Source: a virus. Taken from it: DNA of 64,000 nucleotides. The position numbers were made by a program, and so were the translations under genes. How positions within the stretch are numbered: the first letter of the stretch is position 1; each line of letters starts with the position of its first letter. Positions 13,121 to 39,200 of this stretch are shown here, one piece after another. The stretch spans positions 101,485 through 165,484 of the IMG/VR virus record IMGVR_UViG_3300036766_001793. One strand, 5' to 3'. The notes under the pieces are model-generated. The model searched no databases and was not told the DNA's origin. It worked only from the letters and a program-made list of their open reading frames with translations.

Positions 13121-15703
13121 TCACTCGTGGTCCATGTATATGGGATACACCGCCTCGACGAGGCGCTTGCCGCTCGAGATGATGACGGTCTGGGTCGGCC
13201 TGGAGGCCTTCCCGTAGGCCCTCAGGTACCAGTTGCTCCCGCCGTCGAGGGTGCCGTTCTGGATGACCGGCACCCCGTTGACCTCGAGCATCGAGAACTC
13301 GTGCCTGTGCCCGAGGAGGAGCAGCTCGGGCCTCGCCCCGAAGATGTCCGCGAGCGTCCACTGGGGGAGCAGCTCCCGGATCTTGATCAAGGGACCATGC
13401 CACTGGTCCCCATGCATCGCCACCACCTGATGGCCGCACACGCTGAACCTGGACCACCAGTTCTCCTCGATGTGCCAGTTGATGTTGTCCTGGAGCTGGG
13501 CCTTGTCCCTGGCCCACATGCAGGCGAGCGAGTCGAAGTTGTCCTCCGGGTCGGCGAAGTCGTTCTTTCCGTTGGCCCTCCCGTGGTTCCCCGGGACGGA
13601 GTAGACGTCGACCCCCTTCACATACGAGGCCAAATCCATCGCGACCCCGGCCTGGAGGTCAGCGGTCACCATGATCTGCTTTGTGAGACGGTGGGAATTG
13701 CCAGACCGATCAAGCCCAGTTATATTTTGACCGGCATAGATGAAGCAGTTGTGTCCGACGAGCCCATTGGCTGTGTAATTCTCCAGACCTTCCACCGTCA
13801 GATTGTACACGGGTTCCGCCAGGCTGGACTTGCTAACCTCCAGCACCTTCGTATACCTGGTCCCAGCAAGGGGGGCAATCCAGCCCTTCAGGTCCGTCCT
13901 GTATTCTGGTCTCCTTCTCGGCTGTGTTCTCTGCCCTGCCGAGAATCTCTCCTGATACCTAGGGTCGTGCGACCCTATCTCGCAATTGAGGCTGGGGGCT
14001 CCGAGTGTGAGAGTATAAAGGTCCCTCTCTATTATCCTTCCGGTGGGCAGCTTTGTCCTCCCTGGCCGGTAGTGCACCTCTGTAGCCACCAACCCTAGCC
14101 CGTCGCAAAGGTGCCGGATGTCCTCCATCAGCTGTCCGTTAACGGACCCGAACACTACGACGCCATCCTTTGTCACGTGTCCGTCCGAGTCGATGTACCC
14201 CCGGAGGAAGGCCGCCCTCAGGTCCCTCCTAAGCCCGAACACCCAGCCTGGCACCCGCTTCTCGCGGGCCCTGCCTCCAAGGCCGAGGTCCAGTATCATC
14301 TGGGCCGCCGCGGTTGACCCGAAACGGGCCATTCCGTCAGACCAGGCTGAGAACTTCACCGGATCCCCGTTCGCCTTGAAGAAGACCTTCTCGGCACCCT
14401 CGAGATATCGGGCGATCCACTGAACCGCATTCTCCGCGAAGGCGATGCACACCACGTTCGGTTTCCCATCCCTGCCGCGTCCGAGGCACCCGTCGCCAAG
14501 GTAGAGCCCCAGGAATTCCATGAGCTCCACGGAAGCATCGGTCCCCAGCGGGGTAGCGGCGTTCCCGCCGTCCGAGAATCTTTCCACCATCGCCACCAGG
14601 TCGCCAGGTTGCACCTCTCCTGCGCGTACGTAATTCAGGGTTACCTCGTACCGGTGCCGGTTCCGATACGAAGACCCAGACACCTCTGTGCGGCGCATGA
14701 CCAAGAAGGGATGCTCGCCGTTCGCCCTAACCGTCCTGTCCCTGGTCCTGATTGTGTAGAGTGGGTCAATTCCAGTCATGGCCGCCGCGGATACTATAGC
14801 CCTCTCAAATCCCTCCCGACCGAGGGCCCATACTTCATCACCAGCGATGAAACTCTCTATCGGCTTCGGACCGTCTGGCGTGTCCACCAAGGTGCCGGCT
14901 GGGAGGCAGCCTTCTAGCATGTCTCCGGCGAACACCAGGTGGGCCCTATCCACCGAGTAGCCGGAGTCCCGGTACTGCTTCACGATTTCGTAGGTGGCCG
15001 CCATGAGCCTCGGGACGCGCTGCTCCACGACGGCCCTCACACCGATGCCATTCTCCATTTTGCCTACCTGCCAATCCGAGCACAGGACGATGACCTCCCG
15101 CGCCCCCTTCGGCTTGTCGACGTCCCCCGGTCCCGGTTGCCTTCGCTCCGGGAGCAGCCACCGATTCTCCGTCAGGACCTTATTCACCTGGTACCTGAGG
15201 AACTCGCGCTGCGAGGTGAGCTGCTGCACCTTGCGCTGGAGGCGGTTCTTTTGGCCGAACGCCCTCGCGGCCATCTCCGTGCCGCTGGCCTCCGGGTAGA
15301 GGGATCCCTCCTCTGCGAGGATCTCCTCCTTCGTCCAGAGGCGCTCCGACCGCCTGCAGTCTGGGTGGTGATACCAGTGGCCGTCGTTCACAGGGGTGAA
15401 CCGCTCTATGCAGTCGCGGTTCATGCAGCGGCGCCTGACCGCGAAGGGAAGGCCCTCGCCGTCGTCATCCCAGAAGTCGCCCACTGGCGCCGAAGGTTCG
15501 GCAGCCTGGCGGACTTCTCCGCTTTTCCGGTAACGATCGGCCCGGAGGCCCCTCATGTTCATCCTCTTGGCGATGCTGTCGTACTTTACGACCCCGTCGA
15601 ACCCGTGCCGGCGAAGGACCTCCTGGGCGGCCTTCCCGCCGCCCGACGGGTACACCAGGCTGATCTCCTCCCAGACGCCGTCCGGAATAAGGCTGCGAGC
15701 CAC
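13121..15703 (-). CDS. metallophosphoesterase interrupted by an intein
   Basis: The 860-residue precursor starts at GTG 15703 behind a strong AGGAGG. The N-terminal part (about 1-200) has a helical DNA-binding-like start, a Cys/His pair region (CMNRDC, then HHPDC) and a coiled coil. The phosphoesterase motifs are CSDWQVGK (208-215), GDMLEG (260-265), PGNHGRANGK, MHGDQWHG and LGHRHEF, i.e. the usual D-x-H/Q, GD, GNH and GHxH metal ligands. Residues 266-652 are an intein, leaving a 473-residue spliced enzyme. The family hydrolyses phosphodi- or monoesters, here perhaps nucleic acid; the precise substrate is not evident. Confidence 0.88.
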   Translation of the reverse strand: MARSLIPDGVWEEISLVYPSGGGKAAQEVLRRHGFDGVVKYDSIAKRMNMRGLRADRYRKSGEVRQAAEPSAPVGDFWDDDGEGLPFAVRRRCMNRDCIERFTPVNDGHWYHHPDCRRSERLWTKEEILAEEGSLYPEASGTEMAARAFGQKNRLQRKVQQLTSQREFLRYQVNKVLTENRWLLPERRQPGPGDVDKPKGAREVIVLCSDWQVGKMENGIGVRAVVEQRVPRLMAATYEIVKQYRDSGYSVDRAHLVFAGDMLEGCLPAGTLVDTPDGPKPIESFIAGDEVWALGREGFERAIVSAAAMTGIDPLYTIRTRDRTVRANGEHPFLVMRRTEVSGSSYRNRHRYEVTLNYVRAGEVQPGDLVAMVERFSDGGNAATPLGTDASVELMEFLGLYLGDGCLGRGRDGKPNVVCIAFAENAVQWIARYLEGAEKVFFKANGDPVKFSAWSDGMARFGSTAAAQMILDLGLGGRAREKRVPGWVFGLRRDLRAAFLRGYIDSDGHVTKDGVVVFGSVNGQLMEDIRHLCDGLGLVATEVHYRPGRTKLPTGRIIERDLYTLTLGAPSLNCEIGSHDPRYQERFSAGQRTQPRRRPEYRTDLKGWIAPLAGTRYTKVLEVSKSSLAEPVYNLTVEGLENYTANGLVGHNCFIYAGQNITGLDRSGNSHRLTKQIMVTADLQAGVAMDLASYVKGVDVYSVPGNHGRANGKNDFADPEDNFDSLACMWARDKAQLQDNINWHIEENWWSRFSVCGHQVVAMHGDQWHGPLIKIRELLPQWTLADIFGARPELLLLGHRHEFSMLEVNGVPVIQNGTLDGGSNWYLRAYGKASRPTQTVIISSGKRLVEAVYPIYMDHE
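13748..14908 (-). mobile_element. intein in phosphoesterase, LAGLIDADG type
   Basis: This 387-residue intein begins with Cys (CLPAGTLVDTPDG) directly after GDMLEG and ends GLVGHN, followed by extein Cys. Block B is NGEHPFLV, the endonuclease motifs are FLGLYLGDGC (about 397-406) and LRGYIDSDGH (about 500-509), and block F is VYNLTVEGLENYTANG. All splice residues are present, so it should be active. It interrupts the conserved metal-binding loop of the host enzyme. Confidence 0.93.
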
Positions 15704-30025: not shown

Positions 30026-30642
30026 CACGTCCCGCCCAGGGAGGACAGGTCGGCCCTCCACTGCCTGAGGTCCGGCAGCGCGTCCCCGACGTGCGGGGCG
30101 TCCCAGTCCCTCAGGAACGCGGAGAGCATGCCCTCGACCTCGTCTATCAGCCCTGGGGCGAAGTCCGGGTCGTCCGCCAGGACGCAGCGGTAGATCGGCC
30201 TCATCGCCTGCCTCATGGTCATCGGCGCCCCGGTCACCTCGTTGTCGAACGCCCACACTCCGCCGTCCCGCCCCAGCCCCCAGTTGTTGGCGTGGCGGTC
30301 GCGGTTCCTCATGACGAGGTCCAGGCACGCCATGGCGGCGAGGCCGCGCAGGGCGCGCCCGGTGGCCCTCACCGACCTGAGCAGCCGCTCGCCAGCCAGG
30401 TGGGCCGTCGTGCCGTCCACCATCTCCTGCGCCGTGCCGTGCCGCCCCACGACGACCGTCCGCGGGACCACCCCGCCGAAGTACCTCTCCGACAGCGCGT
30501 ACGCGAACGCCTCGTCCGGGCCACGGCGGAGGACCCACCGCCCGCCGCCGGCGTCCACCGCCACGAGGTGGCCCGACCTGCCGGGGGCCATCTCCCCCGG
30601 GAGCGGCGGTCTCACCTCGACGAACGCGACGTCACGTCCCAT
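30025..30642 (-). CDS. PI3/4-kinase-like protein
   Basis: The 205-residue product has the sequence MRNRDRHANNWGL followed by WAFDNE, which corresponds to the catalytic HxD...N and metal-binding DxG-type motifs of the phosphatidylinositol 3/4-kinase-like (and HipA-like) fold. The N-terminal half supplies glycine-rich and nucleotide-binding strands. Such small kinases accompany head genes in some phages; whether it phosphorylates protein or lipid is not evident. The start overlaps the portal end. Confidence 0.7.
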   Translation of the reverse strand: MGRDVAFVEVRPPLPGEMAPGRSGHLVAVDAGGGRWVLRRGPDEAFAYALSERYFGGVVPRTVVVGRHGTAQEMVDGTTAHLAGERLLRSVRATGRALRGLAAMACLDLVMRNRDRHANNWGLGRDGGVWAFDNEVTGAPMTMRQAMRPIYRCVLADDPDFAPGLIDEVEGMLSAFLRDWDAPHVGDALPDLRQWRADLSSLGGT

Positions 30643-33600
30643 AGGGGCCCGGGATCTCGGCCGCCCCCTCGGCCGCCTCCGCCCGCCCGCGGGCCGGCCG
30701 CCTCGGGTCCTGCTCCGGCGGCAGCGGCTGCTCCACCCCCTGGCCGAGCTTGGCCGCCCTCTGCTGGTCCGGCATCGCCCCGCCGCCCGGCCCGCCGAAC
30801 CCGCCGCCCCCGAACGGGCTGGCCCCGTCGGCCTGCGCCTTCTGCTGCTCCTCCGCGGAGAGCACGCGGCCGTGGAAGCTGAACTCGTCCGTCTCGGAGT
30901 CCCACTCCACCCCGAACCCCATGCCGGCGAACGTCTGGGCGACGGAGGCCTTGGCCTGGGTGATCTGGATCTCGACCAGCTCGCTGGTCTCCTCGGGGGT
31001 CCTGATCTTGAGGTGCCAGTCGCCTATCTTGAGCGCCCTCTGGAGCTTCGGGAATACGTCAGTGTGGTACGACCGCTGTGCGCCCTCAACTACACGCGAC
31101 ATCACTGTGAGCTGCTGGCTGTTGGAGAGGACCACGCCCCCGATGCCACCGACGAACAGGTGGCTCTCGTCCGCCACCTCTATGTCGTAGACGAAGTCGT
31201 GCCAGTCCTCCTGGACGTGCACGCCGCGCACCTCCTCCCTCTCGATGCGCCTGGGCATGACCCGGCCGGCCTCCTCGCCGAGCAGGGTCTCCACCCCATA
31301 GAAGTGCGAGTGGCGCGGGCTGGCGCTCGGGAGAAAGTTGGCCCTGGTCGCCGTCCCGGTGGCCCAGTAGAGGTACTGGAGCCCGGCGGCGAGGGGGAAG
31401 TCCACCGACCCCTGGGTGACGGTCCCGTTGGGGGTTGTGTGCCCGTCCCCGGCCACATACCCGTCCAGGTAGGACCTCATAACGTCCTTCCCGGCGTTCA
31501 GCACGAGGTGGGGCACCTTCTTGTAGCACTTCTTCTGGTCTGTCCTACGGGACCGCCCGAGCTCTGGATCATGCACCCCATAAGAGACCCTGTAACTGGA
31601 CGTGGCGTTGGCCGTGAACCACCCGGCCAGTTCCTTGCTCTGGACCTCTATCGATGCGGACCTCTTGACGCCCTTGCGCTCCCGCCAGTACACCTTCGGC
31701 ACGGTCCCGAACGCCCGCCTGATCCTGGCCTCCGCCGCCCTGACCAGCCCCTCGTCAGTGTTGGACCAGCACACCCTAGTGGCGCTGGCGTAGCCCTCAG
31801 CCCCGAAGAACCCGAGCAGCCACGCCAGGTCCTCTGTCATCGACACAGATCCCGTGGCTTCTGGCAGCACGAGGGACAGCCTGTCCCCGTCCTTTATCTC
31901 GTCTGCGGCCACCTTCTCGCCGTTCACGACCACCGAGTGGTTGCCTGTCACCCTCAGCAGGGCGTCGCCAGCCCTCACCGTGAACATTGGCTTGTCCGTC
32001 ATGTGCCTGAACACCTTGTTTATGGCAGACCACCCGTTTGGGGTGAGCGCCTCCACCGTCTCAAGCCTTCGATTGGATCCGTTGTGCAGCCATGCTATGG
32101 GCACACAATCAATGAACTCCTTATCGTACCTGACCCAGACCGGAGTATCACCGGGGATGCTCTCGTTGTTTAGCCCACCTATCCCCTCGGTGGAGTTATG
32201 GAGAAGCACGCCGCCTATGCCACCGGCGAACGTGCCGTCCTCAGTCTCGAGATCGTATACCCAGGCGCCCGTTTTATGAACGGACTTGCTCACCGTCTTG
32301 ACCTCGTTGATTGCCTTCTTCCTGACGGTCAGGATCTCCTGGAGCTTCCAGCTCCTTGCGTCCTTCGTCATCTGCGGGCCGCCCTTGCCCCGGCGCTTGT
32401 CCTGGATGTAGAGGACGGACACCTCCATGCCGATGGCCCTGAACAGGTAGTCCACGCCGGCCATGAGGGTCGGGTGCGCCCCGACCACGGCGCGCTGGCC
32501 GAGCGGGGTGACCGAGCCGTCTCCGGCCATGAAGCCGTCCACGAAGGCCCTCATCACACCAGTGCTCCCGTTGAGCACGGCCTTGGGAACCCTCCTCACC
32601 GTGATCTCCCTCATGCTCCCCGGGGCGTCCCCGGTCAGGAACGTGGTGAACAGCTCCCTCTCGAGCTCCTGGGCAACGTCCCCGTAGGCCCTAACCCTCA
32701 GCCCGTCGTCGCGCGTCGCCCGCTGGTAGGCTGACTCGAAGCACCGGGCGAACTCCGCCCTATGGCCGTCGTCTCGGCAGGTCGCCTCGACCAGGTTCTT
32801 CCCAGGGCGGATGACAGTCCCCTCGGCCGCGTAGAATCCGAGGGCCCACGCTTTCTCCGCAGTCATGGTCGCGAGAGACGGCGAATCCGGGAGGTCTGCC
32901 AGCTCTATCAGGTCGCCTGGGCTGAGGTCGCCAGCGCTAATCTCACGGCCGCCCTCGTCGAACAGAGAATGGTTGGCGGTCACTTCGATCGAGGACCCGC
33001 CAGTGGTGACGACCACCACGTCCTCCTGAGCTCGGTGGGCGAACACCTTGGTGATCGGCCGCCATCCGCTCCTGGTGAGGGCCTCGATAATACCGTTCTT
33101 GAGCCCGTCGACGAGAGGAGGCTTGGCCATCATGTCCCCCCCGCGATCTGGGTGGGTGACCGAGTACAGGCTCCCGATGGGGACGAGGTCGATGAACCTG
33201 CCCTCCTTGCGCACCCACACCGGAGCGTCCGGCGGGAGGCTCTGCATCCAGATCTGCGACACCCCGTAGATGCCGGAGATGCGCTCCCGTATCTCGTCCC
33301 TGACCGGCAGGTAGTCGAGCTCGTCGAGGGAGTACGCGAACCGCACGAACTCCATGCGCCCCTGGCCGCTCTTGGAGGCGATCGCCATCCAGGGGATGTA
33401 GTGCGGGTCCTGCTGCATGCGGGCCTCGACCTCGTTCTTCGTCGCGTTGAAGGCCGCCGTGTCGTCCGTCACCACGGTGACGACGCCCTGCGGGACCTTG
33501 CGCTCGTAGAAGTAGTCGTAGAGGTACCGGTCCATGCCGATGAGGGTCATGGCCTTCTCGTAGATGCTCAGGACCGGCGGGAAGCCGTAGGTCTCCGTAT

Positions 33601-35812
33601 TGCCTGACCACACGGTCTTGCCGTTCCGGCGGACCATCATGACGTGGTTCTGGACCTCGAGGCCGAACACGGCCCCGACCCTCCGCTTCTCGTGGGAGAG
33701 GCCGTATCTCCCGGGGTTCAGGCACAGGTCCGCCTCCTGGTGGACCCCGAACCTGAGCCCGGTCTTACCGGTGAAGCACGTCTGGTACCCGAGCTTGATG
33801 GACACCTCGGCCACGTCCTCCAGGAACTTGGGGGAGAACGACCTGAAGGAGGCCGGCCGGCCGCGCTCGTCAAAGTGCCCGTCGCCCCTCATGACGGCGT
33901 CGAACAGGACGCTCAGCCTGGCCGGCGGCAAGTCCTTCAGCCACGCCGGGATGAACCGGTCCCTCGACCGCCCGAACTGCTCGAAGTACCGCCTGAGGCC
34001 CGGGTGCCAGACGGAGATCTTGTCCTCGTGTGGCGTCGTCACGTGGAGCCCGAGCCTCTCGGCGCACTCGATCATGCGCCGCCTGTTCTCCGGGTTGGCC
34101 GACGAGCTCTGCGTGAGGCTCACAGGGGCTGACCGCCGGCCGCTGGGCACGTACGACCCCTCCGTCAGCCAGTACCCAAGGAACTCGAGCCAGTCCGACA
34201 TCGGGACCATCCTCGGAGCGATGGCCCTCCCGCCCCAGTACCTGCCGTGCGAGGACGGGCTCTCGTACCCCGGGATCTCGAACTGGCCGACGTCCTCCCC
34301 GGCCCACCCCGCGGTGTTGGACATATAGATCCGCTGGGAGTTGTCTATCCTGTAAGCCTCGACGAGCCCGAACTCAGTGGTGAGCCTCTCGCCGACCGGC
34401 CCCTCGTACCCAGAGTTGCGCTCGCCTAGGCTCGGATGCTTGGTGGCCACATGGTGCCTGGGGAACCCGTCGTGCTCGTGCATGGGGGTGTAGCCTGGGT
34501 CAGGGCTATGCGCGCCCCTCACCCAGAGCTTATGGTGCGGCGTGACCACGAGGTCCACCCGCTGCCCCTTGGCCACCCACATCGGCCCGGTGTGCGGCTT
34601 CACCACCTTGTCCGTCGGCCCCTGCCACTCAAGGAACCCCCCGGGGGACCTGGTGGCCACCTCGTCGACGCCGATCTCGACGTCGACGATCCTCTTCCAC
34701 CCGCCCCTGGTCATCACCTCGGTGTCGTAGTCGTAGCACGGGCTGTACCGCGACCAGTGGATGACCTCGTCGTCGAGGAGGTAGAGCACCTTGGCCCTCC
34801 CGGGGCCGTAGGCGCTCGCCTGCTGCTCGCTGTACTTGTAGTACACCGGGTAGGTTCTGAGACCGCAGCTTGGGCATATACCCTTCCACTCGATGTCCCA
34901 TCCCTCGTTTATGGGGACATCAAGGATGACATCTCTATCAAAAACACACAGGTGGTGTCCTTGCCCAGGGACTCCTCGGTCGTCCATGTCGAACTCCACG
35001 AGGGTCGGGTCCATCCTGAAGATCTGCATGACCTCGCGGTCCGGAGCGTACTTGTCGTTGAACGGGTCTTCCTTCGCCTCGGCTATCTCGTGGTCCGCCA
35101 GCTCGTAGCGGCACCTGAAGTATATGAACCCGTCATCTACTACATTGATGTCGTCCTCTGTCTGGCGGAGGATGGACTCCAGCGACTGGCCGAAGTAGTT
35201 CGCGTGGTCCAGGAACCGGTCGAAGGCCTTGATCTCCCTCGGCGACGGCCTGCGGAGCGGGTACCCGCCCTGCGGGTTCTCCTCCTCCATCTGGAGCGGG
35301 TTCCCGTCCTCGCCGAGGTGCAGCCCCTCGTCCTCCCGGCAGTGGCAGGAGAACTTCGCCCTCTTGGCCTCCTTCGCCGTGAACTCGGAGTCGCACCGGT
35401 CGCACTTGAACTCGAAGGCTGGCTCCCACTCCAGGCCGCGCCTGAAGATCTCGTTCCTGAGGTGCAGTGTGGCGGTCCTGACGTCGCCGCTGTTCAGGAC
35501 GATGGCGTAGAGGTCGAGCAGCCTCCGGCGCTCCGCCGCGTACTGGCGCCGGCCCTTGATGCCGTAGTCGTTGATCCCGACGAGGCCGCCCATCGCGGTG
35601 GCCTTGTCCACCATGCTCGCCATCGGGCCGTAGAGCCTCTGGTCGTTCGCCGCCCGGTCTATCGTGTCCCTCACCGTCTGGGCGTGGTGGGCGACCGAGC
35701 CGCCCCTCCTGATGGTCGCGTCCAGGAACCCCCTGAAGTCGTCCTGGGGCGCGGCCGCGCTGGGGCGGCGGCCGCCCCAGAGGAAGCTGGAGACCGTGTC
35801 CCTGACCCCCAT
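30632..35812 (-). CDS. portal protein precursor with three inteins
   Basis: The 1726-residue precursor starts at ATG 35810-35812 behind AGGGG. After removal of three inteins (residues 359-738, 858-1206 and 1218-1564) a 650-residue portal remains, a plausible size. Extein features include DDEVIHWSRYSP joined to TETYGFPPVLSIYEKAMTLI, a segment typical of portal wing/stem regions, SGIYGVSQIWMQ, and a C-terminal SQQLTVMSRVVEGAQRSYH. The N-terminal region carries a CDRCDSEF...CHCRE zinc-finger-like insertion and a CPSC pair, unusual for portals. The portal forms the dodecameric DNA gate of the head; three splicing events are needed to make it. Confidence 0.9.
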   Translation of the reverse strand: MGVRDTVSSFLWGGRRPSAAAPQDDFRGFLDATIRRGGSVAHHAQTVRDTIDRAANDQRLYGPMASMVDKATAMGGLVGINDYGIKGRRQYAAERRRLLDLYAIVLNSGDVRTATLHLRNEIFRRGLEWEPAFEFKCDRCDSEFTAKEAKRAKFSCHCREDEGLHLGEDGNPLQMEEENPQGGYPLRRPSPREIKAFDRFLDHANYFGQSLESILRQTEDDINVVDDGFIYFRCRYELADHEIAEAKEDPFNDKYAPDREVMQIFRMDPTLVEFDMDDRGVPGQGHHLCVFDRDVILDVPINEGWDIEWKGICPSCGLRTYPVYYKYSEQQASAYGPGRAKVLYLLDDEVIHWSRYSPCYDYDTEVMTRGGWKRIVDVEIGVDEVATRSPGGFLEWQGPTDKVVKPHTGPMWVAKGQRVDLVVTPHHKLWVRGAHSPDPGYTPMHEHDGFPRHHVATKHPSLGERNSGYEGPVGERLTTEFGLVEAYRIDNSQRIYMSNTAGWAGEDVGQFEIPGYESPSSHGRYWGGRAIAPRMVPMSDWLEFLGYWLTEGSYVPSGRRSAPVSLTQSSSANPENRRRMIECAERLGLHVTTPHEDKISVWHPGLRRYFEQFGRSRDRFIPAWLKDLPPARLSVLFDAVMRGDGHFDERGRPASFRSFSPKFLEDVAEVSIKLGYQTCFTGKTGLRFGVHQEADLCLNPGRYGLSHEKRRVGAVFGLEVQNHVMMVRRNGKTVWSGNTETYGFPPVLSIYEKAMTLIGMDRYLYDYFYERKVPQGVVTVVTDDTAAFNATKNEVEARMQQDPHYIPWMAIASKSGQGRMEFVRFAYSLDELDYLPVRDEIRERISGIYGVSQIWMQSLPPDAPVWVRKEGRFIDLVPIGSLYSVTHPDRGGDMMAKPPLVDGLKNGIIEALTRSGWRPITKVFAHRAQEDVVVVTTGGSSIEVTANHSLFDEGGREISAGDLSPGDLIELADLPDSPSLATMTAEKAWALGFYAAEGTVIRPGKNLVEATCRDDGHRAEFARCFESAYQRATRDDGLRVRAYGDVAQELERELFTTFLTGDAPGSMREITVRRVPKAVLNGSTGVMRAFVDGFMAGDGSVTPLGQRAVVGAHPTLMAGVDYLFRAIGMEVSVLYIQDKRRGKGGPQMTKDARSWKLQEILTVRKKAINEVKTVSKSVHKTGAWVYDLETEDGTFAGGIGGVLLHNSTEGIGGLNNESIPGDTPVWVRYDKEFIDCVPIAWLHNGSNRRLETVEALTPNGWSAINKVFRHMTDKPMFTVRAGDALLRVTGNHSVVVNGEKVAADEIKDGDRLSLVLPEATGSVSMTEDLAWLLGFFGAEGYASATRVCWSNTDEGLVRAAEARIRRAFGTVPKVYWRERKGVKRSASIEVQSKELAGWFTANATSSYRVSYGVHDPELGRSRRTDQKKCYKKVPHLVLNAGKDVMRSYLDGYVAGDGHTTPNGTVTQGSVDFPLAAGLQYLYWATGTATRANFLPSASPRHSHFYGVETLLGEEAGRVMPRRIEREEVRGVHVQEDWHDFVYDIEVADESHLFVGGIGGVVLSNSQQLTVMSRVVEGAQRSYHTDVFPKLQRALKIGDWHLKIRTPEETSELVEIQITQAKASVAQTFAGMGFGVEWDSETDEFSFHGRVLSAEEQQKAQADGASPFGGGGFGGPGGGAMPDQQRAAKLGQGVEQPLPPEQDPRRPARGRAEAAEGAAEIPGPYGT
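31121..32161 (-). mobile_element. portal intein 3, Ser1 type with LAGLIDADG
   Basis: This 347-residue intein begins SIPGDTPVWVR and ends GGIGGVVLSN followed by extein Ser. Block B is VTGNHSVVV; the endonuclease motifs are WLLGFFGAEGY (about 1331-1341) and YLDGYVAGDGH. It closely parallels portal intein 2 at both ends, so the two are paralogues. Splice-site residues Ser1, His-block B and the terminal Asn are present, so splicing is expected. Confidence 0.92.
32195..33241 (-). mobile_element. portal intein 2, Ser1 type with LAGLIDADG
   Basis: This 349-residue intein begins SLPPDAPVWVR and ends GGIGGVLLHN followed by extein Ser. Block B is VTANHSLFD; the endonuclease motifs are WALGFYAAEGT and FVDGFMAGDGS. 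Only 11 extein residues (STEGIGGLNNE) separate it from intein 3. Confidence 0.93.
33599..34738 (-). mobile_element. portal intein 1, Cys1 type with LAGLIDADG
   Basis: This 380-residue intein begins CYDYDTEVMTRGGW and ends MMVRRNGKTVWSGN followed by extein Thr. Block B is VTPHHKLWV; the endonuclease motifs are FLGYWLTEGS and FDAVMRGDGH. It lacks the His before the final Asn (GN), which is tolerated in some inteins. It is not closely similar to inteins 2 and 3. Confidence 0.92.
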
Positions 35813-36677: not shown

Positions 36678-39200
36678 CTAGGTCGCCCTCCCCGCCAGGA
36701 GAGGGTTCCTCTTCCTGATGCCGCCGAACATCTCCTGGGCGTCCCCGAGGATCTGCATGACCGGCCCGTCGTCCGCCGCCCTTATGGCGAGCGCATTGGA
36801 CCAAAAGGCATCGCCGTGTCCATCCGAGGTCTCCACGGACCTGAGCGCCTTGTCGACGGCGACTATCTGGGAGGTCTGCCTCCGGTCGTCCAGCAGGATG
36901 ATGCCCATCTCGTCGTCGTCCGCGTAGAACCTCGACTCCATGGCCAGGGCCATCTGGGCCTTCGTCTTAGCGTTGAAGGCCATGCCCAGGGCCTGCCTGG
37001 GCATGTTGCGGTCCTCCATCTCCGCCCTGGTGTTATCGTAGTAGAACCGCCTGATCTTGAAGTGGTCGATGATCTGCCTCACCCTCTTCGCCTGGGACCG
37101 GTAGTCCATCCCGTCGAGGAACTCCTGGTAAACCTGGACCAGGTCCCCTGTCGGCATGAGGGCGAACACCGCCAGATGGGTCGGGTGCACCTGCTTCCCG
37201 ACGTCCATGCCGCCGTAACACCCGAGCGTGCCGACGGAGCTGAACGACTCGTCGAGGCCTATGGGTCTCAGCTGCCTGTCCACGCACGACTCGATGACCT
37301 CGATCGGGATGAAGGCGCTGATCGCGAGGACCGGAACGAGCATGTACTCGACCTGGTAGGCCCGGTCCTTGATCCTCTGCCTCGTCCTGGCCAGCCTCGC
37401 CTGGTCGAACTTCTCCGGCCAGAGCACCTGCCCATCCCCGAACTCAGCTGGGAACCTGCCCCAGAAGTAGGAGGCGGTGTCCTTCCTCTTGTAGAGGGTG
37501 TCCTCGTAGGACTGGGGAGTGCCGATCAGGATCAGGCTGTCATCCTCGTCCGGGAGCGACTCGAGCGACTGGGTGAAGATAGCTTCGATGCGCCGAATCT
37601 GCTTCGGCTCAAGCGCGTTGGCAAAATCCGATAAAATGTCATCACAATTATGCACAATTATGTTATATCTTAGTTGGTAAGTATGGTCCTCCTCCACGTT
37701 CAAGTTATACACCGTTCCAGTATAGTGTTCTATGCCTAGACTTACTACAGTCTGCCCATTGTGCGTAAGCACCAAGTCCTTGATCAGCTCATCGTGCTGT
37801 GTGCTGATGTTCGTCTTTGTGTGACACGACCTGCACAACGCGACCAGGTTGTCCACTGCGTTGTTCCATCGGTCCCTGTCTATGTGGTGTACGTCCAGCC
37901 GCCGCCCCAGAGCGTCGTCCGCCTCGGCTGCCATGCACCAAGCACACGACCGGCCGTACAACCCTCGAATTTGCTCCCTCAGCGACTCGGTGAACTCAGC
38001 TCCCGCCGCCCTGCGCCTTGTAGATGATCCACCCCGCCAGTTAGGATTAGATTCTCCTGAGAATCGTAATCCCCAATCAAGATTCTTACATTTTCGAGAG
38101 CAATATAGGACCCCTCCTCTCTCTACTGCATACCGCACTTTCGCAGGGGTGACTGTCCGCGTCCCCTCGCATCCGTCCCTAGCGCACGTGAAGATCGCTG
38201 GCCCACCCGCCCATCTACCATTCTTGATCCCCGTTCTGTCAGCGGCGTGATTATTGAACGCCACGACACATCCTTTTCCACAAAATCTCTGCCCATGCGC
38301 ATATCTGACGAAGAAACTGGCCCCACACTCCTCACACAATGACCTTCGCCTGGGTCTCCGGCCCTGCTCATCAAGCAGAGTCCCGGTCTCCAGCACGTCG
38401 CCAATTTCTATGTCCCCAGCGGCAATCCATCCGCGCTTCGTCAGAAACTGATGATTCGGGGTGACACGGATAACTTGCCTACCATACCCGACAAGTACTA
38501 GTTCCCCGTCATATGGGCGACTCTGGGCCTCCAGCACCTCACGATACTTGCCAGAATGTCCGACCACCCAATCCCCGGCCATGACCTCCGAGATGGGCCG
38601 ATAGCCCATCTTGCTCACCCGCACTTCCGTGTCCGGGGTGAAGCACACGAGGAACTTGGGATGAAGGCCGCGGACGGTCGACATGATCCCGTACGGGTCC
38701 ACTTGCCCGCGCCAGTGCACGCCGTCGCCGAAGGTGCAGTCGAAGTCCACCACGGACTCCGCCGCCTTCTTGTTGTCCGTCCACATCCGGCAGTAGGGGT
38801 TCGCGGAGATGAACTTCTTGATCTTCGTCGTGTGCTCTTGTGCCAGCGTGTCCTTGAACGACATCACGATCCCGTCCACGTCCTGCCAGGCCCTGAACAG
38901 CTTCCAGAAGCTGAAGGCGTGGTTCAGGACGGTGGACTTGAGGTGGCCGCGGGGGGCCAGGATGCACACCCTCGGGTGCTCCTGGGCTATCATCGCCCAG
39001 GTGTAGTGGATGGCCCCAAGCTCGAACTGGTGGTATTTCCGGTCGGCCAGGCGGAACTTCCGGCCGGCGAAGCTCTTCGGGAAGACGTGCATCAGGAAGA
39101 ACGGGAAGGACGCCTGCGCCGCCCTGATGGTGGCCAGCTCCTCGGCCGAGAAGGGCTCAACGGGGGCCTGCGGCTGGCTAGTCCTCCTCGTCGCCCTCAT
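36678..39200 (-). CDS. terL: large terminase subunit with intein
   Basis: The 840-residue precursor has an ATPase Walker A LAPRGHLKST (about 81-90), the Walker B region LVCDDILSDF rejoined across the intein, an ISLIGTPQ-type coupling segment (DSLILIGTPQSYED) and RNase H-like nuclease residues (GGMDVGKQ, YYDNTRAEMED, then DGHGDAFWS). After removal of the intein a roughly 507-residue motor/nuclease remains. It packages DNA into the prohead through the portal. The start at ATG 39198-39200 has GGAGGA upstream. It is preceded by a probable small terminase gene. Confidence 0.93.
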   Translation of the reverse strand: MRATRRTSQPQAPVEPFSAEELATIRAAQASFPFFLMHVFPKSFAGRKFRLADRKYHQFELGAIHYTWAMIAQEHPRVCILAPRGHLKSTVLNHAFSFWKLFRAWQDVDGIVMSFKDTLAQEHTTKIKKFISANPYCRMWTDNKKAAESVVDFDCTFGDGVHWRGQVDPYGIMSTVRGLHPKFLVCFTPDTEVRVSKMGYRPISEVMAGDWVVGHSGKYREVLEAQSRPYDGELVLVGYGRQVIRVTPNHQFLTKRGWIAAGDIEIGDVLETGTLLDEQGRRPRRRSLCEECGASFFVRYAHGQRFCGKGCVVAFNNHAADRTGIKNGRWAGGPAIFTCARDGCEGTRTVTPAKVRYAVERGGVLYCSRKCKNLDWGLRFSGESNPNWRGGSSTRRRAAGAEFTESLREQIRGLYGRSCAWCMAAEADDALGRRLDVHHIDRDRWNNAVDNLVALCRSCHTKTNISTQHDELIKDLVLTHNGQTVVSLGIEHYTGTVYNLNVEEDHTYQLRYNIIVHNCDDILSDFANALEPKQIRRIEAIFTQSLESLPDEDDSLILIGTPQSYEDTLYKRKDTASYFWGRFPAEFGDGQVLWPEKFDQARLARTRQRIKDRAYQVEYMLVPVLAISAFIPIEVIESCVDRQLRPIGLDESFSSVGTLGCYGGMDVGKQVHPTHLAVFALMPTGDLVQVYQEFLDGMDYRSQAKRVRQIIDHFKIRRFYYDNTRAEMEDRNMPRQALGMAFNAKTKAQMALAMESRFYADDDEMGIILLDDRRQTSQIVAVDKALRSVETSDGHGDAFWSNALAIRAADDGPVMQILGDAQEMFGGIRKRNPLLAGRAT
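37647..38645 (-). mobile_element. terminase intein with HNH endonuclease
   Basis: This 333-residue intein begins CFTPDTEVRVSKMG and ends YNIIVHN followed by extein Cys of CDDILSD, so it splits the Walker B strand. Block B is VTPNHQFLT. Unlike the other five inteins its endonuclease is HNH: LDVHHIDRDRWNNAVDNLVALC with flanking CAWC and CRSC pairs, preceded by two further cysteine-rich zinc-finger-like segments (CEECG, CSRKC). Its C-terminal part is visibly richer in A+T than the flanking gene. Confidence 0.93.

Follow-up and report, generated by a model that had tools for sequence, protein, structure and literature searches.

A viral portal gene with three inteins, two of them separated by an extein of 11 residues

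How might two full-length inteins have come to lie 11 residues apart in one gene, and does the short segment between them belong to the host protein or to a single larger intein? We considered these questions for a gene in the window, a 64,000-nucleotide stretch of virus DNA (positions 101,485 to 165,484 of IMG/VR record IMGVR_UViG_3300036766_001793). A preliminary description, made from the letters and open reading frames of this stretch, had placed three inteins in a portal gene, and our re-reading of the frame at 30635-35812 returned identical coordinates for all three (Table 1). Their removal leaves joined exteins of 650 amino acids. We propose that the gene carries three separate cis-splicing class-1 inteins that were acquired stepwise, and that the middle extein is the predicted tunnel loop of the portal, a reading to which we assign a probability of roughly 0.8.

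Table 1. Parts of the portal precursor gene, in coordinates of the window. A slash marks the boundary between an intein and the extein that follows it.
Feature	Position	Strand	Remarks
Portal precursor reading frame, 1726 aa	30635..35812	(-)	ATG at 35812; no in-frame stop
N-extein, portal residues 1-358	34739..35812	(-)	
Intein 1, 380 aa, residues 359-738	33599..34738	(-)	Cys1 ... GN/T; LAGLIDADG endonuclease domain
Second extein, 119 aa (TETYG...IWMQ)	33242..33598	(-)	
Intein 2, 349 aa, residues 858-1206	32195..33241	(-)	Ser1 ... HN/S; block B TANH; LAGLIDADG endonuclease domain
Intein 2, LAGLIDADG motif 1 (AWALGFYAAEG)	32819..32851	(-)	sequence
Intein 2, LAGLIDADG motif 2 (VMRAFVDGFMAGDG)	32516..32557	(-)	sequence
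Middle extein STEGIGGLNNE, 11 residues (33 bases), residues 1207-1217	32162..32194	(-)	predicted tunnel-loop region; uninterrupted in 11/11 related portals; predicted loop between two helices
Intein 3, 347 aa, residues 1218-1564	31121..32161	(-)	Ser1 ... SN/S; block B TGNH; LAGLIDADG endonuclease domain
Intein 3, LAGLIDADG motif 1 (AWLLGFFGAEG)	31793..31825	(-)	sequence
Intein 3, LAGLIDADG motif 2 (VMRSYLDGYVAGDG)	31442..31483	(-)	sequence
C-extein, 162 aa (SQQLTVMSRVVEG...)	30635..31120	(-)	
Possible co-conversion tract, first 22 C-extein codons past intein 3	31055..31120	(-)	A/T third positions 7/22 vs 38/628 in remaining extein codons

The host protein and its inteins

The identification of the host protein as a tailed-virus portal, the DNA-entry ring of the capsid, was borne out by three comparisons, which support it at the level of sequence and predicted fold. 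The joined 650-aa exteins matched phrog_18178 (portal protein) in a profile search with an E value of 1.5e-47, and they resemble the portals of haloarchaeal tailed viruses (HCTV-5, 26% identity, E 5e-33). When the portal of L001, the closest intein-free relative, was modelled with modest confidence (pLDDT 54), the leading fold matches in the PDB were phage/GTA portal-neck entries; these were portal-only matches, with a best E value of 1e-7 and modest TM scores. A search of PDB sequences with a profile of the portals gave chance matches only.

The profile searches also agreed with the description of the inserts as inteins. On the 1726-aa precursor, the Pfam profiles Intein_splicing (PF14890, E 8e-12) and LAGLIDADG_3 (E 7e-18) both scored over their cut-offs, and the precursor passes those of TIGR01445 and TIGR01443. 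When the inteins were tested alone, intein 2 exceeded the cut-off of the NCBIfam profile intein_Nterm and intein 3 that of intein_Cterm; the sole profile match of intein 1 was LAGLIDADG_3, and its assignment is based, in addition, on the homologues that occupy the same site in related viruses. PF14528 matched among the inteins, with intein 2 on its own below the cut-off. A profile of inteins 2 and 3 matched PI-PkoII (the KOD Pol-2 intein, 2cw7), a HINT intein and their closest solved structure, at 2e-10, and a TFIIB intein at 4e-07. An AF2 model of intein 2 built from two sequences was poor (pLDDT 41).

The catalytic residues had been described as intact throughout, and this holds for Ser or Cys at position 1, the TxxH of block B, the terminal Asn and the +1 nucleophile, which read Cys1 (CYDYDTEV), TPHH, a terminal GN and Thr in intein 1; Ser1, TANH, Asn349 and Ser in intein 2; and Ser1, TGNH, Asn347 and Ser in intein 3. 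It does not hold for the penultimate His, which intein 2 alone has (HN); Gly takes its place in intein 1 (GN) and Ser in intein 3 (SN). This His is not universal, and its substitution is tolerated in some natural inteins. Two acidic LAGLIDADG motifs can be read in each of the three elements. The sequence features together identify all three as class-1 inteins, predicted to be self-splicing, with predicted LAGLIDADG homing endonucleases.

Further inteins were observed elsewhere in the genome, bringing the total for the 165-kb record to at least seven. The gene for the terminase large subunit (window 36678-39200, minus strand) has an intein of its own at residues 186-518 (Cys1...HN/C) with an HNH endonuclease, and A/T third positions make up 39% of the codons inside this intein and 8% of those in its exteins. 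A gene for an SbcD/Mre11-like exonuclease (window 13121-15703, minus strand) has a LAGLIDADG intein at residues 266-652. Outside the window, an ORF of 1620 aa that may encode a prohead protease fusion (G000:C1:89685-94547; L021 186-5048) includes two more, one a mini-intein and the other with a Vsr-like endonuclease region. In the counterpart of this ORF in IMGVR_UViG_3300036766_001364, the second intein is broken (L039 1171-3273, with the next ORF starting from about 3257): one frame, with the N-terminal part and the endonuclease, terminates at a stop, and another begins MPKVLSVERVPYEGWLYSLDVDEDRSFVANGLVVHN. The break may reflect a frameshift, or the element may be a split intein of natural origin.

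Insertion sites in related portals

Does the segment STEGIGGLNNE belong to the portal? We compared the exteins with 11 related portals from IMG/VR virus contigs. Sites 2 and 3 are empty in all 11, and the alignment runs through both junctions; in L001, for example, the empty alleles read IWMQ-STEGVGGLNSE-SQQL. The 11 spacer residues could be aligned in every relative, with GGLNxE well conserved, and the sequence at site 3 (SQQ) is strongly conserved. Because the 11 relatives read straight through both sites, we regard STEGIGGLNNE as genuine portal sequence and not as part of an intein, as the preliminary description had proposed. A single larger intein that includes this segment, which the preliminary description had named as a possible refutation, is ruled out by its uninterrupted presence in the related portals.

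Site 1 has a different distribution: it is filled in two relatives and empty in the other nine. In one of the two, L003 (IMGVR_UViG_3300036766_001364), the intein at site 1 is 71% identical to intein 1 while sites 2 and 3 are empty; in the other, L014, the identity to intein 1 is 27%. In the first LAGLIDADG motif of the L003 element, Gly stands where an acidic residue is expected (FLTGGSY vs WLTEGSY, with Glu in the present intein 1), so the endonuclease of that element may be inactive. Two further scans for portals filled at sites 2 or 3 recovered empty alleles only, and a relative with intein 2 alone or intein 3 alone was not found among them. So far, the sequences point to inteins 2 and 3 being unique to the present genome.

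In the L001 model, the equivalent of the spacer (residues 450-460) is flanked by a helix at residues 431-441 and a long one at 459-489, and the model is weakest at the loop itself (pLDDT about 31-35). In the SPP1 portal gp6, the stem helix alpha-5 is followed by the tunnel loop and then by alpha-6, and mutations in the tunnel loop disturb DNA packaging (PMC9701221). Because the helix-loop-helix order of the L001 model matches that of gp6, the middle extein is probably the portal tunnel loop, bracketed by inteins 2 and 3. If it has this role, both neighbouring inteins must splice accurately.

Kinship and order of arrival of the inteins

Homology between inteins 2 and 3 extends along their whole length (29% identity, 117-122 bits, E about 1e-33); by region, the identity is highest in the C-terminal splicing part (60%), followed by the N-terminal splicing part (40%) and the endonuclease (29%). 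They are mutual best matches, and nothing else that we found is equally close to either. The next best match among 50,697 phage records (68-72 bits) is the PolB intein of LR756508, a 484-kb uncultured huge phage; it is a full-length homologue with 23-25% identity, but it is single and lies in a different host gene. No relatives of inteins 2 or 3 were recovered by strict peptide-pattern scans of viral contigs and genome contigs, or from plasmids, and a scan of the genome contigs for provirus portals found none. A recent duplication, or an assembly error that created a tandem, was also considered as the source of the pair. Both are ruled out by the 29% protein identity and by the DNA, in which the longest exact word common to the two inteins is 11 bases.

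Intein 1 appears to have a different history. In comparison with its L003 homologue, it has a dN of 0.23 and a dS of 1.14 (dN/dS about 0.2), which indicates purifying selection, and it is as diverged from L003 as its exteins are. The equal divergence and the low dN/dS suggest that intein 1 was vertically inherited. Its third codon positions match those of the exteins in G+C richness, and inteins 2 and 3 are poorer in G+C at these positions, both having 14% A/T third positions and an equal GC3 of 0.86.

The codons that follow the inteins are informative in the same respect. In the middle extein, 3 of the 11 third positions are A/T, compared with about 6% in other extein codons; when this segment is taken together with the 22 codons past intein 3, the proportion is 10/33 vs 35/617 for all other extein codons (p 3e-5). 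No such excess is found beside intein 1. An excess is also seen directly downstream of the terminase intein (10/22 codons) and of the intein in the SbcD-like exonuclease gene (12/22 codons), so that for the 22 codons downstream of inteins in the portal, terminase and SbcD-like genes pooled, 29/66 are A/T-ending vs 118/1564. The simplest reading of these sequence clusters is that flanking DNA was co-converted from lower-GC donors during homing. On the indirect basis of this codon bias, inteins 2 and 3 and their downstream flank would be later arrivals than intein 1. A separate tract of A/T-ending codons (up to 15/28) is present in the N-extein at portal residues about 267-316 (window about 34860-35020); it adjoins no present intein, and co-conversion does not explain it.

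Proposed splicing and alternative explanations

In the reading that we prefer, each intein would excise in cis, the ester or thioester formed at Ser1 or Cys1 being passed to the +1 Ser or Thr, after which the terminal Asn of the intein would cyclise. The spliced product would be a 650-residue portal, in which IWMQ is joined to STEGIGGLNNE and then to SQQL, and three independent cis-splicing reactions would be needed before the portal ring could form. Because the middle extein is predicted to form the loop that connects the stem helix to the long alpha-6 helix, a precursor spliced at only one of sites 2 and 3 should give no working portal. Intein 1 would be the older resident, which a related virus also carries. 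The other two inteins would derive from a common ancestral intein and would have been acquired later, most likely successively, through homing into two sites with 33 bp between them.

How did two related inteins come to occupy these sites? The explanation to which we give slightly more weight, with a likelihood still somewhat short of even, is that they were captured separately from different donors belonging to one wider, unsampled family, the spacing being a coincidence or a consequence of conserved portal sequence. The more distant family member in the PolB gene of the 484-kb phage fits such captures, as does the conservation of site 3, since sequence conservation is a usual property of intein targets; no donor emerged from viral contigs, phages, plasmids or genome contigs (the contigs being scanned with strict peptide patterns), but metagenome sampling is thin. 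A more tentative possibility, to which we give about one chance in three, is that the endonuclease of one intein cut an alternative site 33 bp away, that the intein was copied there, and that the two copies then diverged into the present paralogues. Such cutting has a precedent in an archaeal intein endonuclease with a second, alternative cleavage site 52 bp away from the one used for homing, and it has been proposed as the origin of multi-intein genes (PMC8966425). It would account for mutual best matches with equal GC3 in the same gene, although related inteins from two donors would give the same picture. The 29% identity implies that any such split is old, the DNA around sites 2 and 3 is alike at 7/24 bases, which is not above chance, and no relative was found that retains a single intein of the pair.

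We also considered that the pair might not always splice as two units. If the N-terminal half of intein 2 paired with the C-terminal half of intein 3, everything between would be excised, giving a second form of the portal that lacks the 11-residue loop. Mispairing is conceivable between nearly adjacent inteins with splicing halves as similar as these, but it is improbable here: no relative has lost the 11 residues, which apparently form a functional loop, so the skipped protein should be defective, and each contiguous intein is expected to fold preferentially in cis. Slightly less probable again is a combination of these ideas, in which paralogous inteins 2 and 3, arising as one endonuclease moved to a nearby site, bracket the tunnel loop as a swappable 11-residue cassette and can cross-pair their splicing halves, to give a portal with or without the loop; if true, this would be a protein-level counterpart of exon skipping. 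The least probable explanation is an artefact: a decayed pseudogene, or an assembly that is chimeric or contains a duplication. The virus contig was derived from a metagenome, but the 1726 codons of the gene run without an in-frame stop, no near-identical repeat links inteins 2 and 3, the catalytic residues are intact, and the frame continues exactly into conserved portal sequence on either side of each insert.

Multi-intein genes are well documented, and the present arrangement can be seen as a tighter version of them, in which, moreover, neither of the two close neighbours has a nearer known relative than the other. T. kodakaraensis (KOD) PolB and P. abyssi CDC21, the latter with mini-inteins, likewise have several inteins in one protein, but they are other host proteins and their spacers are 85 and 48 residues, respectively (PMC8966425). 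Among the published examples found in our partial coverage of the literature, 11 residues is the shortest spacer, and the earlier judgement that such a middle extein is very unusual for a portal seems reasonable. The haloarchaeal MCM (CDC21) inteins a and d resemble inteins 2 and 3 in that both are full-length LAGLIDADG inteins with intact endonuclease motifs at close sites in one essential gene, with Ser at +1 of MCM-d; they differ in that they interrupt a helicase, at sites with a wider spacing, whereas the present pair lies in a portal at 11-residue spacing and consists of mutual closest known relatives (PMC10643990). Portal (PORT) inteins also occur in mycobacteriophages of cluster C1, for which the portion of the survey that we consulted reports no gene with more than one intein (PMC5050341).

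Two views have been put forward on how genes come to have several inteins. In one, endonucleases find alternative sites near the homing site (PMC8966425). In the other, close double-strand breaks block joint homing, so that double occupancy has to accrue by successive single insertions; neighbouring MCM inteins home well singly and poorly together (PMC10643990). Two related inteins with 33 bp between them are an extreme natural case for both views. The gene also raises the question of whether a spacer of only 11 host residues leaves two full inteins able to fold and splice in a ring-forming protein, and it offers an unusually tight natural case for the study of intein spread and of side-by-side splicing.
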